Of a stretch of DNA of 57,283 bases, positions 43,144 through 55,057 are shown one piece after another. The notes under the pieces are model-generated. The model worked only from the letters and a program-made list of their open reading frames with translations, made no database searches and was not told where the DNA came from. Source of the stretch: Sulfurimonas sp. (GTDB lineage Bacteria > Campylobacterota > Campylobacteria > Campylobacterales > Sulfurimonadaceae); assembly GCA_027448805.1 (NCBI GenBank), contig DAIDMU010000051.1, positions 1 to 57,283 on the forward strand, read 5' to 3'. Every line of letters starts with the position of its first letter. The first letter of the stretch is position 1. The translations under genes and the position numbers were made by a program.

Positions 43144-44094
43144 ATGCTTTTTAGCAGTGTTGCATCACACCTTAAACTCGCATTTGTCGGTGAAGATTTA
43201 GAGATTGACTCTATGAATGAGTTAAATCTCTCTTCATCCTCGCAATTATCATTTGGGGTTCATAAAAAGTACTCTTCAGAGCTGTCTCTATCTAAAGCAA
43301 AAGCTTTTTTAATAACAAATACTTTAGTAGAACATCTTCCTAAGGACTCCTCATATATCATCTGTGAAGATGTCTCTGTTTCAATGGCACAAATAACAAA
43401 ACTTTTTAACAAAAAACCAATAGACAGAGAGCTTTTATTGCCAAAAGTAGGTTCCAACAGCTACATAGATTCTATGGCAAAAGTTGAAAACGGTGCGGTA
43501 ATAGGCTCAAACGTAACGATTATGGCTGGTGCTTACATCGGCACAAATGTGCAGATAGGCGACGACACTATCATCTATCCAAACGTGACTATTTATAGAG
43601 ATTGTTTGATTGGCAGAGAGTGTATTATTCACGCTGGAACGGTTATCGGAGCTGACGGATTTGGCTTTTCTCACACAAAAACAGGCGAACATGTCAAAAT
43701 TTATCAAAACGGAAATGTTATCATAGAAGACGATGTGGAGATTGGTGCCAACTGTGCAATAGACAAGGCAGTTTTTAACTCTACTATAATCAGAAAAGGC
43801 ACAAAACTGGATAATTTTATACATATTGCCCATAACTGCGATGTTGGCGAGTATTGTATATTTGTTGCTCAAACAGGGGTGGGCGGCTCGACAAAACTGG
43901 GACGTAACTGTGTTGTAAGCGGGCAGAGCGCTTTTAGTGACCATCTGAGCATTGCTCCGTTTTCCACATTTACCGCCAGAAGCGGAGTAACAAAAAGCAT
44001 AACAGAGAGCGGCGGTGTTTACAGCGGATTTCCGCTTATGAACCATAGGGATTGGAAGAGAGTTCAAGCAAAAATTGGGAAGCTAAACGACTAG
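43144..44094 (+). CDS. lpxD: UDP-3-O-acylglucosamine N-acyltransferase, first copy
   Basis: A 316-residue left-handed beta-helix acyltransferase that adds the second acyl chain to UDP-3-O-acyl-glucosamine in lipid A synthesis. The N-terminal uridine-binding domain covers about 1-100 and hexapeptide repeats cover about 105-270. The catalytic histidine is expected at His230 in HIAHNC. Its C-terminus ends with [17 protein letters not shown], typical of LpxD. It is the upstream one of two tandem lpxD genes; its N-terminal domain is less like standard LpxD than that of the second copy. It sits directly behind ilvN. Confidence 0.92.
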
Positions 44095-44104
44095 GAGTTA
44101 AATT

Positions 44105-45058
44105 ATGGATTTAAAAGAAATATCAAAAATAATAAATAGTGATTTTGACGGTATCAGCTTTAATATAACCAAGATGAATACCTTAAGGGATGCCTCAAAG
44201 AGTGAAATATCCTTTGTAGCGAACTCAAAATATATAAAAGAGATAGAGAGCTCTAACGCAGGTGCGATAATAGTCGATAAACAGACAAAAGAGTTCGTTC
44301 CAAATGGCTGCGTCGCTCTGGTGGTTGATAATCCTTACTTGGAGATGGCAACACTCTCAAAATATTTTGCTCCACCGATTGAAGATGACTCTCTTGCTGA
44401 ACCCGTAATAGGCGAGGGCAGCAGTGTCTCGCCAAAAGCAGAGATTGCAAAAGGTGCAGTGATAGGTAAAAACTGCACTATTATGGCGCATGTTTATATA
44501 GGTGCAAATGCAGTGGTAGGCGATAACACTGTAATATATCCGAGCGTAACAATATATAGAGATTGCAAAGTCGGAAGCGATTGTATAATACATGCAAATA
44601 CGACAATCGGCAGTGACGGTTTTGGTTTTGCAACAAACAAGCTGGGCGAGCATAGAAAAATTTATCAAAACGGCAATGTTGTAGTAGAGGATAATGTAGA
44701 AATTGGAAGTAGTACTACCATAGACAGGGCAGTTTTTGGAACCACGCTTATAAAATATGGTGTCAGAATAGACAACCTTGTTCAAGTAGGGCACAACTGT
44801 ATCATAGGCGAGCACTCAGTCCTTGTTGCTCAATCCGGCATTTCAGGCTCAACTACGATGGGAAGAAATGTGGTAATGGGCGGACAGAGCGCAACGGCAG
44901 GACATCTCAGCATCGCTCCTTTTACGACCATGGCTGCAAGAAGCGGGGTCACAAAGAGTATCAGTCAAAGCGGAATGACTTTTGCGGGATTTCCGCTGAT
45001 GGAACACAAATTATGGCTAAAACTTCAGGGTAAAATAGCTAGACTAATAAAACAATAA
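44105..45058 (+). CDS. lpxD: UDP-3-O-acylglucosamine N-acyltransferase, second copy
   Basis: A 317-residue LpxD, collinear with the gene just before it. The N-terminal domain has the family pattern EISFVANSKYIKEIESSNAGA (shortened here: SFVANSKYIKEIESS, about 37-51). The hexapeptide helix covers about 105-270, and His230 in VGHNC is the expected catalytic base. It ends with GFPLMEHKLWLKLQGKI. It starts ten bases after the first copy. With its more standard N-terminus it is the likelier housekeeping enzyme; the two copies may differ in acyl-chain choice or be used at different times, but that is inference. Confidence 0.93.
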   Translation: MDLKEISKIINSDFDGISFNITKMNTLRDASKSEISFVANSKYIKEIESSNAGAIIVDKQTKEFVPNGCVALVVDNPYLEMATLSKYFAPPIEDDSLAEPVIGEGSSVSPKAEIAKGAVIGKNCTIMAHVYIGANAVVGDNTVIYPSVTIYRDCKVGSDCIIHANTTIGSDGFGFATNKLGEHRKIYQNGNVVVEDNVEIGSSTTIDRAVFGTTLIKYGVRIDNLVQVGHNCIIGEHSVLVAQSGISGSTTMGRNVVMGGQSATAGHLSIAPFTTMAARSGVTKSISQSGMTFAGFPLMEHKLWLKLQGKIARLIKQ

Positions 45059-49780: not shown

Positions 49781-50374
49781 TTGAATTTCACTTTTTTAGA
49801 GGTTAAAGATAGTGAGCTGCTTGGAAAGGTGTTTGAGTTTCGTTACAAAATTCTCTTAGAAATCTATCCTGAGTACATAGAAGCATCAAACCTTTTGGAT
49901 AACAAAGAATATGACAAATATGACACTTATTCAACACATTTTGCAGGGATAGACAATGAGGGTGAAATTTGTGCAACAGTAAGGCTGATATACAATTCAC
50001 CGCTTGGGTATCCGACGGAAAATGGCATGATGTTTGATAGGAGCATGTTTGAGAGAGATAAGCTCGGAGAGATGTCAAGAATTTTTGTAGATGCAAAATA
50101 TAGAAATATAAAAACTACTATGGATATAATGGACGGACTTAAAAAACTTATGTACTCAAAAATGATGAAATTAGGTGTTGAATATACATACGGTTCACTT
50201 GAAGAGAGCTTTTTGAGGCTGCTTAGAATCTATAAAATAACATATATAACGATAGGTGAAAAACAAGAGCATAGGCCTTTTGGTTTTCGCTATCCGTCTG
50301 TTTTATACACGAAACAGTTGGGGGCAGATAATCCTCATATTACTGAGCAATGGGGGTCTCAGCATGAATTATAA
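49781..50374 (+). CDS. GNAT-fold protein resembling LuxI/FeeM acyl-signal synthases
   Basis: A 197-residue protein with a TTG start behind GGAGAG. The residue pattern follows that of acyl-homoserine-lactone synthases: Arg21 (EFRYKI), Asp45 and Asp48 (YDKYD), Arg68 (TVRLI), and Glu97 with Arg100 (GEMSRIFV). The conserved Trp of LuxI near 34 is not seen. The same pattern is shared by N-acyl amino acid synthases (FeeM type) and exosortase-associated acyltransferases, so the product could be an acyl-homoserine lactone, an N-acyl amino acid or another acyl compound made from acyl-ACP or acyl-CoA. No LuxR-type gene is nearby. Its stop lies 11 bases inside the TonB receptor gene, so the two are coupled. 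Confidence 0.7.
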   Translation: MNFTFLEVKDSELLGKVFEFRYKILLEIYPEYIEASNLLDNKEYDKYDTYSTHFAGIDNEGEICATVRLIYNSPLGYPTENGMMFDRSMFERDKLGEMSRIFVDAKYRNIKTTMDIMDGLKKLMYSKMMKLGVEYTYGSLEESFLRLLRIYKITYITIGEKQEHRPFGFRYPSVLYTKQLGADNPHITEQWGSQHEL

Positions 50375-52445
50375 TATTTTATATAACTCTAAACTTATTA
50401 GAATTATTTTGCCTTTGCTTACATGTTTAACAGGTTTAATCGCCCAAACCGATAATCTGATTGAGTCGATTTCCGGCGAAATGGAACACTTTAACAAAGT
50501 GGCAACTGCTACAAAGCAAAATGAGCACTATCAACCATATATCATCTCCGTGTTTCAAGGAAATGAACTTGAAAAACTCGGTATTTCAAACCTAAAAGAG
50601 GCACTGCTTTTAGTTCCCGGTGTTGATATGGCAACGGATAACTCAAATATTCAAACCCCTATATTTAGAGGTTCAAATCCTCTTGCATACGGTCAGTCAA
50701 AACTTTTTATAGACGGTATATCCGTCAATAATCTTTTTCTAGAAGCCTACTCAGAATATCTCTCCTTTCCTATTGAGATGATCAAACGCATAGAAGTTGT
50801 ACGAGGTCCTGGAAGCAAAATAGACGGCTTTAACGCCTATGCAGGCTCTATAAATGTCATAACATACGCAGAGGATTTTAAAGGGTTTGAGTCTGATGAT
50901 AAGCTTGTGTTTAAATATGGCTCATATGATTACAAAATGGGAGGTTTTTTCAAAACCTACAAAACAGATGATTTGAAGATATTTGTTGATTTTTTCTATC
51001 AAGAAGATGATAAAAAATTGCCCTCAGGTCCTGATGGCCTATCTCAAGGAGCGCTAAGTCTGCTTCCCGTGTTCGACAATAGAGCTTTATCTCAAACAGG
51101 TGATGCTCCCCTGTGGCTAAAAGAGTACTCGCTTGGAACAAATGTTGAGTATAAAGATTTTTCTCTCAAAGCGCGAATGTTAGAACATACGCAGGGAAGC
51201 GCATACGGTATAAATCTTGCACTTCCGCAAGAGAGCGACAGAGTGAAACTGCCAAGCTACTACCTTGATTTGGGATATGCCAAGAAGATTGGAGATTATG
51301 AAGTTAATATAAATGCAGGCATAAAATATGATGCCTTTGACTCATATTCCAAATTGGCTCCTGATGGTCTGAATTTTGGTGTTATATTTCAAGACGGAAT
51401 ATATGGAGAGCACTTTGCCGCACAGCAGACACTATATCAATCATCTTATCTTAAATACAGTGCAATTGACAAGCATCTCATTACAGCAGGTTATCGTCTT
51501 ATAAAAGAAGAGACCATAGATATGACATCAAAGCTCTCAAATAGAGCTACCGGTGATGTGGAACTTGTTGATTATACTGATACCTTGCCGTTTTTTGACA
51601 AAGATGCCAAGCGTAACACTTTTATATTCTCACTGCAGGATGAGTATCAATTCAGAGATAATATAAGCTTTATTTACGGCTTTAACTACGAGCAAACATC
51701 ATATAAAGATTCAGGTTTTGAGCCTAGGGTGTCAATGGTCTATCAGAGGGATGCAGAAAATATTTTTAAAACTATGTATAGCCGCTCACATAGGAACGCT
51801 TCATGGCAGGAGATGTTTACTATGAATAATCGTGCCAGAGTAGGCAGCACCGATTTAAATCCTGAAATAGTAGATGCCTTTGAAGTTGCATATATTAAGA
51901 AGTTTTCAGCCGATACATACCTACAAACTAATATTTTCTACTTGTTAAATAAAGACCAGATATATAACTCATCTGTTAACCCAGAGTATAGAAACGCGGT
52001 GGATACGGATATTTACGGCTTTGAACTTGAATACAAAGGAAACATATCATCAGTTGATGAGTTATATCTAAACTACTCCTATGTTGATGGCAAATCTTAC
52101 ACGCAAGACGAGGACAGAAGCGAATCAATTCCTAATGTTGCACATCATCTGGCTAAAGGGTACTATCTTTACAATCTAAACAGCGATTTATCACTCAGCA
52201 CTGTTGTTAAGTATGTCGGCGCTAAAGATAGAGTTTTTGGAGATACGCGTGAGAAAGTAAAAGCATACTCTACGGTTGATTCTTCACTCTACTACAAAGA
52301 TTCAAAATATAACTATTGCGCCACACTTAGTATAAAAAATATATTTAACACCAATGTTACATATCCGTCCCCGCCAAACACATATATACAGGATTATGCG
52401 CAAGAGGGCAGAACATTTCTAGTAACGCTAAAAAAAGAGTTTTAA
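50364..52445 (+). CDS. TonB-dependent outer membrane receptor
   Basis: A 693-residue receptor. The ATG at 50364, with GGGGGT upstream, gives a signal peptide (about 1-28) and is preferred to an in-frame start at 50256, which lies deep in the previous gene. The plug domain (about 45-165) shows LKEALLLVPGVDM, FRGSNPLAYGQSKLFIDGI and IEVVRGPGSKIDG. The rest is a beta-barrel ending with the aromatic FLVTLKKEF. No siderophore-, heme- or cobalamin-specific signature is visible, and no TonB, ExbB or ABC transporter gene is nearby. Because it is joined to an acyl-synthase-like gene and a YfiR-like gene, it may serve signalling more than uptake; this is inference. Confidence 0.92.
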   Translation: MNYNILYNSKLIRIILPLLTCLTGLIAQTDNLIESISGEMEHFNKVATATKQNEHYQPYIISVFQGNELEKLGISNLKEALLLVPGVDMATDNSNIQTPIFRGSNPLAYGQSKLFIDGISVNNLFLEAYSEYLSFPIEMIKRIEVVRGPGSKIDGFNAYAGSINVITYAEDFKGFESDDKLVFKYGSYDYKMGGFFKTYKTDDLKIFVDFFYQEDDKKLPSGPDGLSQGALSLLPVFDNRALSQTGDAPLWLKEYSLGTNVEYKDFSLKARMLEHTQGSAYGINLALPQESDRVKLPSYYLDLGYAKKIGDYEVNINAGIKYDAFDSYSKLAPDGLNFGVIFQDGIYGEHFAAQQTLYQSSYLKYSAIDKHLITAGYRLIKEETIDMTSKLSNRATGDVELVDYTDTLPFFDKDAKRNTFIFSLQDEYQFRDNISFIYGFNYEQTSYKDSGFEPRVSMVYQRDAENIFKTMYSRSHRNASWQEMFTMNNRARVGSTDLNPEIVDAFEVAYIKKFSADTYLQTNIFYLLNKDQIYNSSVNPEYRNAVDTDIYGFELEYKGNISSVDELYLNYSYVDGKSYTQDEDRSESIPNVAHHLAKGYYLYNLNSDLSLSTVVKYVGAKDRVFGDTREKVKAYSTVDSSLYYKDSKYNYCATLSIKNIFNTNVTYPSPPNTYIQDYAQEGRTFLVTLKKEF

Positions 52446-52990
52446 GTGAAAAAAATAGTTCTATTTTTTTCATTTTTGCAAGTTTTGCATACGGATATAA
52501 TTATGATGATTTATTGCTAAAGGCTCAAGCTTCAATATTTCCTAAAATTTTGCTTCTTGACAGAAAGATTGATGATAAGCTTATAGATGGCAAAATAGTT
52601 TATACAATTGTTTATGACAAAAGTGATTACTCTACTGCCAGACATGTAGGTGAATTTATAGATGCAAGCAATAAGGGGCACTTTGATAAATACATGTATA
52701 AAATTAATCTAGTAGAATTTTCTGATTTATCAAGCAGTACACACGCGTCAGTAATCTATGCACTTAATTCAGATAGAGATATTAAAAAAGTTGCGGATTT
52801 TGCCAGAGAAAAGGGAATTATTGCATTTTCATATGATGTTAAAAATTTAAAAGCTGGACTTTTGTTCTCCTTAGTGCTGGAGAAATCAACTGTTTTGTAT
52901 ATGAACAAAGAAAATTTATATATTCAAAAAATAGATTTTGTTGATTCACTACTGCGAATAGTAAAATTTATCGATAAAGACAATAGTTAA
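52446..52990 (+). CDS. YfiR-like (DUF4154) periplasmic protein, frameshifted in its signal peptide
   Basis: The mature part runs from about 52490 to 52990 (ASFAYGYNYDDLL, then IFPKILLLD, ending DFVDSLLRIVKFI) and fits the YfiR/DUF4154 pattern. YfiR-type proteins sit in the periplasm and repress a partner diguanylate cyclase. The expected signal peptide begins with GTG at 52446 (MKKIVLFFS), directly after the receptor stop, but in another frame; as written it stops after 24 codons. One added T in the run at 52464-52470, or one added A in the run at 52449-52455, would join the two parts. An internal TTG at 52514 could start a protein without a signal, which makes little sense for this family. 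Confidence 0.75.
52464..52470 (+). repeat. Seven-T homopolymer tract in the YfiR-like signal peptide
   Basis: Seven T bases between CTA and CATTTTTG. With eight T the GTG start at 52446 would be in frame with the rest of the protein; with seven it is not. A seven-A run at 52449-52455 lies just upstream and could have the same effect. Tracts of this kind in Campylobacterota are known sites of slipped-strand mispairing. Confidence 0.7.
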
Positions 52991-53113
52991 TTATATATTT
53001 AGCAATCAATGTCGCTTATAAATGCTAATATGTGAAGCAATAACATCGTAAATGTGATAAAATATACTTTATTAACCGGTATTTTAGATGTATACAAAGG
53101 TTGACTTTTACAT

Positions 53114-55057
53114 ATGAAAAATAAAATTATTAATTCTCTTTCTACAAAAATAGTTATATCTATCGGTGTCGTGTCGGTGCTTATAACTTTCGTTATTTTC
53201 AGTGTTTCTGAAAAAATAACTAAAGAGGCTTTTTATAATGTTGAGCTTGAAAAAGCTGATTTGATTGCAAAAACAATAGAGCCGTTGTTTGCTCTTAATA
53301 TATATCTTGATATGCCTGAGAATATAGCTCAACTCTCACAACAACTTATGGAAAACCAATATATTTTGTCTGTTAAAGTCCTAGACAGTAAAAATAAGAT
53401 AATTAACGAAATAGAGTCTAAAGAGTACCAAGAAGGTTTTGAAGAATCTTTTGTTGTTGAAAAAAACGTTAATCAGCCTAACTCTACAAAAAAGATTGGC
53501 ACATTGGTTATTGTTTATTCCAACAAGGGCTATAAAGAGCTGGTTAATAAATATACAAATATGACAATTCTTCTGCTTTTTGCCCTTGTTGTGCTGTTTA
53601 TACTATATGGTTTATACGTTAAAAAGCTTCTTTCTCCTCTTGTGAAAATTGCAAACTCGCTAAAGTACTACTCGCCTGACAAAGAGATGGATATTCCTTT
53701 TTTATCTCAAAATAATGAAATCGGGTTAATTTCAAATGCACTAAATAGCATGCAACAAAAAATTTCGCAATATTCTAAAAAACAGAAAAATATAAATCAT
53801 TACCTAGAAGAGAAGGTTAATGAGAAGACGCTAGAGCTTCGTGAACAGCTCTACATAGATACCTTGACCGGACTGCCAAATAGGTTTAGTATGTTTAATG
53901 ACATTATCGAGACAAAGGACGGTGCACTGTTAATTATAAATATAGATGATTTTAAAGAGATAAACGACTTCTTTGGGCATATTGCAGGAGATAATATATT
54001 AAAAAAGTTTTCAAATAGACTTAAAAATATGTTTAAAGGGAACGAATATATTAGATTAAAACGCCTATCCGGTGATGAGTTTGCTCTGCTGTTTGTACAA
54101 AAACCATCTCTAGAAAGTTTTATAAAGAGTGCCGAAAAATTAATTAGTGATGTAGAAAAGATGATTTTTCTTTATAAAAAAAATGAGATAAGCATAAGAG
54201 TAACAGTAGGCGGGGCATACCAGATAGATAGAGCTTTGGAAAAGGCTGACATAGCTCTAAAATCAGCAAAAAGACAACGAAAATCTTTTTTACTCTATGA
54301 TGAAAAGCTAAATATAGAAGAACAATATAAAGATAATATGGAATGGGTCAAAAAGCTTAAAAAAGCCATTGAGCAGGATATGATTGTTCCATATTTTCAG
54401 CCTATCTTTGACAATAAGTCAGAAGAAATCGCCAGCTATGAGTGTCTAATACGTTTAGTAGAGAGCAACGGAAATGTTGTCAGTCCATATCTATTTTTAA
54501 CAATTGCTAAAAAAAGCAGATTGTATAGCGAACTGACAAAAATTATGATTGAAAAAAGTTGTCAACATTTTGAGCATATCGATTATGATTTTTCGGTTAA
54601 TCTGTCGGTAGACGATATATTAGACAGAGATATGGTAAATTATATTAAGCAAAAAATCAAAGAACATAGTGTTGCAAATAAAATTATTTTTGAGATTTTA
54701 GAATCAGAGGGAATAGAAAACTATGAAGAGGTTTCACTTTTCATAAGCGATATGAAGAAGCTCGGCTGCAGAATTGCAATAGATGATTTTGGAAGCGGAT
54801 ATTCAAACTTTGAGCATCTTCTTAAACTTGACATCGATTATATAAAAATAGATGGTACCTTAATAAAAAATCTCGACAAAGATGCAAATGCACAGGTTGT
54901 TGTTGAAACAATAGTAGATTTTGCAAAAAGATTAAATATATTGACGGTGGCTGAATTTGTTCATAATGAAGCAGTTTTTATGAAAGTTAAAGAGCTTAAT
55001 GTAAATAGATCTCAAGGGTTTGCTCTAGGGATGCCGGAAGAAAATACGAAGAAATAA
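53114..55057 (+). CDS. Membrane GGDEF-EAL protein (c-di-GMP turnover)
   Basis: A 647-residue protein with a membrane helix (about 12-32), a periplasmic sensor region (about 33-150), a second membrane helix (about 154-173), a HAMP-like linker, a GGDEF domain (about 245-400) and an EAL domain (about 410-645). The GGDEF loop is SGDEF at 319-323, a variant that can still be active. The EAL motif is ECL (443-445); other phosphodiesterase residues are in place (NLSVDD, ILESEG, AIDDFGSGYS, IKIDG), so hydrolysis is possible. A periplasmic YfiR-like partner is encoded upstream, so the sensor domain probably answers to it. A 123-base spacer separates the two. Confidence 0.9.
   Translation: MKNKIINSLSTKIVISIGVVSVLITFVIFSVSEKITKEAFYNVELEKADLIAKTIEPLFALNIYLDMPENIAQLSQQLMENQYILSVKVLDSKNKIINEIESKEYQEGFEESFVVEKNVNQPNSTKKIGTLVIVYSNKGYKELVNKYTNMTILLLFALVVLFILYGLYVKKLLSPLVKIANSLKYYSPDKEMDIPFLSQNNEIGLISNALNSMQQKISQYSKKQKNINHYLEEKVNEKTLELREQLYIDTLTGLPNRFSMFNDIIETKDGALLIINIDDFKEINDFFGHIAGDNILKKFSNRLKNMFKGNEYIRLKRLSGDEFALLFVQKPSLESFIKSAEKLISDVEKMIFLYKKNEISIRVTVGGAYQIDRALEKADIALKSAKRQRKSFLLYDEKLNIEEQYKDNMEWVKKLKKAIEQDMIVPYFQPIFDNKSEEIASYECLIRLVESNGNVVSPYLFLTIAKKSRLYSELTKIMIEKSCQHFEHIDYDFSVNLSVDDILDRDMVNYIKQKIKEHSVANKIIFEILESEGIENYEEVSLFISDMKKLGCRIAIDDFGSGYSNFEHLLKLDIDYIKIDGTLIKNLDKDANAQVVVETIVDFAKRLNILTVAEFVHNEAVFMKVKELNVNRSQGFALGMPEENTKK

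Follow-up and report, generated by a model that had tools for sequence, protein, structure and literature searches.

The gene run and its conservation

The window, that is, the whole stretch of 57,283 nucleotides that was analysed, comes from a Sulfurimonas assembly of 1.86 Mb in 122 contigs. Four genes form a run on its + strand, namely, an acyl-synthase-like gene (NAT), a TonB-type receptor gene, a YfiR-like gene, and a GGDEF-EAL gene, and the features of this unit are the following.

49781..50374, + strand: NAT, a predicted LuxI/FeeM-fold N-acyltransferase of 197 aa with a TTG start (from the ORF, Pfam, fold, and conservation)
50364..52445, + strand: TonB-dependent-receptor-type outer-membrane protein of 693 aa with an ATG start (from the Plug domain, TonB-receptor models, and receptor tree)
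52446..52990, + strand: gene for a YfiR-fold periplasmic protein, frameshifted in the assembly (from the fold match and orthologue DNA)
52464..52470, + strand: T7 tract in the region coding for the signal peptide, one base short relative to intact orthologues (from comparison of orthologue DNA)
53114..55057, + strand: membrane GGDEF-EAL protein of 647 aa with a periplasmic region, a weak HAMP region, a degenerate GGDEF domain, and an intact EAL domain (from Pfam and the YfiN model)

An earlier note on this DNA had reported that the NAT ORF and the receptor gene overlap by 11 bases on the same strand and that the GGDEF-EAL gene follows the YfiR-like gene on that strand, and both were confirmed. 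On the 5' side of the unit there is a tamA/tamB-like pair that matches BamA/TamA- and TamB-type models with scores below the cut-offs, and on the 3' side there is, as read from its translation, an aminotransferase-like gene on the opposite strand. Elsewhere in the window, tandem lpxD-type genes at 43144-44094 and 44105-45058 score 327 and 350 bits, respectively, in the lipid_A_lpxD equivalog model, above its cut-off of 242.5, and such an adjacent pair may give rise to lipid A heterogeneity. A promoter scan was near chance (32 found against 26.4 expected) and a repeat scan gave nothing meaningful.

About 30 loci, spread over three or more families of Campylobacterota, show the order NAT, receptor, YfiR, and GGDEF-EAL, which excludes chance. 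The neighbourhood search thus found the four families of the cluster together in related genomes, and they form a conserved unit. When 99 genomes near the window were searched, NAT was found in 19, mostly of the same genus, and the neighbourhoods that were read carry all four genes with their order unchanged. A single contig scan returned only Sulfurimonas, the named close relatives are Sulfurimonas, and neither NAT nor YfiR had a tblastn match in the plasmid collection. In a class-wide sample of 397 genomes NAT is present in 33, two of these as fragments; the YfiR gene lies about 2.6 kb downstream of NAT on the same strand in 27 of the 33, the unit is split across contig ends in two (G438 and G449), and NAT is located elsewhere in four (G062, G359, G362, and G431). 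NAT is the first gene of the unit and is closely spaced to, or overlaps with, the receptor gene in nearly all members, and the gaps between the receptor and YfiR genes are mostly -4 to 0. The loci are at different chromosomal sites and the flanks vary, with housekeeping genes such as pepA or tamB among them. The GGDEF-EAL gene of genus g34 is turned round yet remains next to NAT, receptor, and YfiR, and thus the genes have stayed together through a rearrangement. Between NAT and the receptor, pairwise distances correlate with an r of 0.95, to which shared genome ancestry contributes. The four genes very likely work together. The YchF GTPase gene, which is downstream in several loci, and the PepA gene upstream were considered as extra members and rejected because they are housekeeping neighbours found in only part of the set.

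The acyl-synthase-like enzyme

The earlier note had described NAT as a GNAT of the LuxI/FeeM pattern. In the profile search of 49781-50374 the only model that NAT passes is Pfam Acetyltransf_5 (PF13444) with 31.4 bits against a cut-off of 22.4. NAT falls below the cut-offs of LuxI (PF00765; 22.1 bits against 24, E 1.2e-4), of the FeeM N-acyl amino acid synthase (PF21926; 24.5 bits against 27), and of the PEP-CTERM/exosortase-associated acyltransferase TIGR03694 (61.7 bits against 111.95). The NAT set does not include weak matches to the NAT profile, below about 55 bits, whose frames are 258-313 aa long and which represent a different GNAT group. TIGR03694 is the best NCBIfam match of NAT and is seen in all 18 members of the alignment, as would be expected if NAT were part of a PEP-CTERM/exosortase-associated acyltransferase system. 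This is highly improbable, and the link was rejected because of the score of NAT in that model and because the exosortase (PF09721) is absent in 24 of the 25 genomes, the one that has it not being the genome of the window (87.9% complete).

The AlphaFold model of NAT has a pLDDT of 94.5, and its nearest folds are the AHL synthases TofI, LasI, BjaI, and RpaI together with FeeM, with Z scores of 17.3-18.8. The match to TofI has a Z of 18.8 at 2.8 A over 176 residues, that to LasI a Z of 18.3 at 3.0 A over 186 residues, and that to FeeM a Z of 17.3, whereas SACOL1063 gives 16.1 and generic GNATs give about 13. LasI and RpaI are also among the top PDB matches of the NAT sequence profile. The overlay, which puts the NAT model closest to LuxI-type synthases and FeeM and not in an unrelated acetyltransferase family, supports NAT as a structural relative of the LuxI/FeeM acyl-synthases with fold scores above those of generic GNATs. 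Thus, in the earlier description the kinship in fold stands but full membership of the LuxI family does not, given the score below the LuxI cut-off and the missing LuxI Trp.

Residues R21, D45, D48, E97, S99, R100, and R108 of NAT are invariant in 40-41 relatives and R68 is invariant among 18. The conserved residues of LuxI are R, F, W, D, D, R, E, and R. NAT retains R21, D45, D48, R68, E97, and R100 of this pattern, and several of these are catalytic positions of LuxI when NAT is aligned with LasI and RpaI. LasI Phe27 and Trp33 have no match in NAT in the profile alignment, the N-terminal Phe and Trp of LuxI apparently being replaced. Since these two residues are not kept, S-adenosylmethionine need not be the acceptor. 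The fold match to the LuxI family and the retained R, D, D, R, E, and R would suit true LuxI-type AHL quorum sensing in Sulfurimonas by way of an unrecognised receptor. We regard this as quite improbable because NAT is below the LuxI cut-off, because Phe and Trp are replaced in the LasI alignment, and because no LuxR-type receptor domain (PF03472) was found in the 25 genomes. NAT is kin of LuxI, and AHL synthase is only a candidate identity. The dN/dS of NAT in six close pairs is 0.06-0.20; NAT is under strong purifying selection and so the enzyme is maintained by selection.

It could also be proposed that NAT makes the precursor of a membrane aminolipid, an OlsB-like lyso-lipid, and that the other genes monitor the state of the envelope. 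Acetyltransf_5, the only model that NAT passes, is the OlsB family (PMC11631085), and OlsB models are matched at 1e-8 by some relatives of NAT. However, olsB and olsA are usually adjacent (PMC11631085) and the unit has no OlsA/PlsC-type O-acyltransferase, and the nearest folds of NAT are LuxI and FeeM, which makes this proposal unlikely.

An unlinked NAT overlaps a gene of the carboxyl-methyltransferase type (LCM-type, PF04072) in genomes G431 and G359 (loci L113 8755-10283 and L115 6957-8424). These two genomes belong to different families, their NATs group together with support of 99/90, and no PF04072 gene was found in the other genomes among the 25 examined. N-acyl amino acid methyl esters are known from Roseovarius but the genes of their synthases are not (PMC11580390). 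A PF04072-type methyltransferase beside an N-acyltransferase would possibly suit a pathway to such esters, and its position beside NAT gives a hint of an amino acid as the acceptor. The product of NAT is probably an N-acyl amine, putatively an N-acyl amino acid. In this respect NAT resembles the FeeM/NasY-type N-acyl amino acid synthases, with which it shares the fold, the N-terminal signature, and the probable transfer of an acyl group to an amine, for example, that of an amino acid. It differs from them in that it is below the FeeM cut-off, has no exosortase, and is linked instead to receptor, YfiR, and EAL genes, whereas a linkage with PEP-CTERM/exosortase loci is known for some FeeM/NasY-type synthases (Craig et al. 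2011, as cited in PMC11631085).

The receptor, the YfiR-like protein, and the GGDEF-EAL protein

The receptor has a Plug domain (E 3.7e-15) and also scores in TonB-receptor models. It has no match in Pfam to an STN (FecA-type) signalling domain, and no TonB box is evident in the mature receptors; genes with a TonB_C domain are present in the genome of the window. In the N-terminus of the receptor, before the plug, there is a conserved segment, 'SIS..M..F..VAT.TKQNEHYQPYIIS' (window 50445-50545), that is also found in receptors without NAT and is a possible contact for YfiR. In the receptor tree a single clade of 42 rows, with support of 99, holds the receptors of the unit, apart from most of the NAT-less receptor-YfiR sets.

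The earlier note had a YfiR-like gene that begins where the receptor gene stops. A GTG at 52446 does abut the receptor stop, but that frame ends after 24 codons and the body of YfiR is read in the -1 frame, from 52448, while the 158-aa ORF at 52514-52990 is without a signal peptide. When the DNA was compared among about 20 orthologues, the window turned out to lack one base at the T7 tract at 52464-52470. Nearly all of these orthologues have an intact signal-peptide frame and a start codon that directly follows or overlaps the receptor stop. The YfiR gene is therefore frameshifted in the assembly of the window, for which an error of sequencing or assembly and a real mutation or slippage are equally likely causes. 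One YfiR orthologue (L071 2722) has ATT at the start position where the others have ATG or GTG.

That the protein is YfiR-like was upheld by its fold. The model has a pLDDT of 88.7 and its best fold match is YfiR of Pseudomonas aeruginosa (Z 14.5 at 2.9 A over 143 residues, VIA-align), with one-lobe substrate-binding proteins close behind at a Z of about 13-14. The protein of the window has no match to Pfam DUF4154 (PF13689), which is matched by six of the 23 related proteins in the alignment, at best with 1e-9. The mature protein of the window has no cysteine and thus the disulphides of YfiR are absent. Pfam matches to SNaCT6, RepA_N, and GH97 were rejected, being below the cut-off and contradicted by the fold.

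The EAL and GGDEF domains of the fourth protein were matched with E values of 3.1e-63 and 2.4e-23, respectively. The YfiN model NF007423 aligns with residues 11-373 at 124.7 bits (cut-off 325), and the EAL domain is additional to it. The GGDEF motif in the window is SGDEF, with no I-site; among 40 sequences GGDEF is canonical in four and the I-site is missing in all, while the eight catalytic residues of EAL are invariant in all 40. Since the EAL residues are invariant and GGDEF is eroded, the output is read as hydrolysis of c-di-GMP. The most likely output of the predicted EAL phosphodiesterase is the breakdown of c-di-GMP and the GGDEF domain is probably regulatory. The suggestion in the earlier note that the cluster sets c-di-GMP is thus kept, with its direction adjusted to degradation. 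In one locus (L104 9711-11660) the GGDEF-EAL gene is split into two ORFs and is probably frameshifted or decaying.

A candidate route from an acyl compound to c-di-GMP

Acyl-signal systems are known through cytoplasmic LuxR-type receptors or membrane histidine-kinase receptors. With no LuxR-type domain in the 25 genomes there is no usual cytoplasmic reader competing for this role in the present case. We propose, with a probability of roughly 0.4, that the unit is a complete quorum-sensing-like circuit of a hitherto unknown kind in which a self-made N-acyl amine, perceived outside the cell, acts through a TonB-type outer-membrane receptor and a YfiR-fold protein on a c-di-GMP phosphodiesterase, and that lineages which have lost the synthase retain the receptor as eavesdroppers. 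The mechanism that we infer, including the substrate and the product of NAT, release of the product, its sensing by the receptor, and the sign of control by YfiR, would be as follows. NAT would take a fatty acyl group from acyl-ACP or acyl-CoA and attach it to an amine acceptor, for which an amino acid is the most likely candidate, and the N-acyl compound would leave the cell. At the cell surface the TonB-type receptor would bind this compound, or a close analogue from neighbours, and its occupancy would alter the hold on, or the release of, the periplasmic YfiR-like protein. The latter would dock on the inner-membrane HAMP-GGDEF-EAL protein, at its periplasmic domain, and would control the EAL phosphodiesterase, so that c-di-GMP and the choice between the attached and the motile state would follow the ligand. 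There is about an even chance that the full circuit operates, with the receptor sensing the product of NAT and the signal reaching the EAL enzyme via the YfiR-like protein; the step in which the receptor senses NAT's own product is likewise one on which we see the odds as balanced.

The relay part is modelled on YfiBNR, in which YfiR keeps a c-di-GMP enzyme of the membrane in check and a partner in the outer membrane sequesters YfiR (PMC3375315, PMC4655355). The unit and YfiBNR (TpbB) of P. aeruginosa both have an outer-membrane component, a periplasmic YfiR-fold protein, and, in the inner membrane, a c-di-GMP enzyme that has a periplasmic region and a HAMP region. However, beside YfiR the loci of the unit have a TonB-type barrel where YfiBNR has the OmpA-like lipoprotein YfiB, and the effector has an intact EAL with a degenerate GGDEF whereas that of YfiBNR is a diguanylate cyclase alone. 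The unit also adds an acyl-synthase-like gene, and its YfiR-like protein is without the conserved YfiR disulphide cysteines. Like LuxI/LuxR quorum sensing the unit has a LuxI-fold enzyme, encoded by the first gene of the locus, but NAT is below the LuxI cut-off and without the conserved Trp, there is no LuxR, and the candidate receptor is an outer-membrane barrel with a c-di-GMP output and not a transcription factor. As in the FecA/FpvA-type TonB transducers, a TonB-type receptor is coupled to signalling across the periplasm, but in place of an STN match and an anti-sigma/sigma pair the unit has a YfiR-fold protein and a c-di-GMP enzyme. Our literature search, which covered few subscription papers, found no paper in which an acyl-synthase is connected with a TonB-type receptor and c-di-GMP, and no acyl-signal system of Campylobacterota is described in the papers searched. 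In a survey of vent-shrimp symbionts the Epsilonproteobacteria had only luxS, and there was no luxI at all (PMC5362221). If the product of NAT is the ligand, the unit would be a route for sensing density or neighbours directly from the outer membrane to c-di-GMP.

Within the receptor clade NAT is decayed in G204 and G323, missing in G002 and in the second copy of G260, and unlinked in G431 and G359. In L125 (upstream of 7306) and in L123 (6874-7086) remnants of a decayed NAT lie directly 5' of intact receptor, YfiR, and EAL genes. Since the relay persists where NAT is decayed, absent, or unlinked, the receptor must have a use that does not depend on a synthase nearby. Such persistence would suit eavesdropping, but also an unrelated ligand, and by analogy resembles the LuxR solos. 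Sets of receptor, YfiR, and sensor without NAT occur in the same group of genomes, with a histidine kinase-response regulator, GGDEF alone, or PAS-GGDEF-EAL as the output, and NAT may therefore be an added function. Both the persistence of the relay after loss of NAT and these sets with other outputs suit an alternative in which the receptor-YfiR-EAL relay senses an environmental ligand such as a metal chelate, a lipid, or an oligosaccharide that does not come from NAT, while the co-induced NAT makes an acyl-amine as a response, for example, a surfactant, an acylated ligand, or a surface lipid. We consider this somewhat unlikely because NAT heads the unit close to or overlapping the receptor gene in nearly all members, and because it is carried by one receptor clade and evolves with it. 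With regard to the proposed quorum-sensing-like circuit, the natural synthase-minus lineages make the hypothesis directly testable, and the unit offers a concrete candidate source of ligand for the orphan receptor-YfiR-sensor sets. YfiR-fold proteins seem to serve different sensor outputs. The genome of the window itself has, on contig C69 (L048 4752-9819), a second receptor-YfiR set in which the receptor is divergent and a PAS histidine kinase-response regulator is downstream of YfiR.
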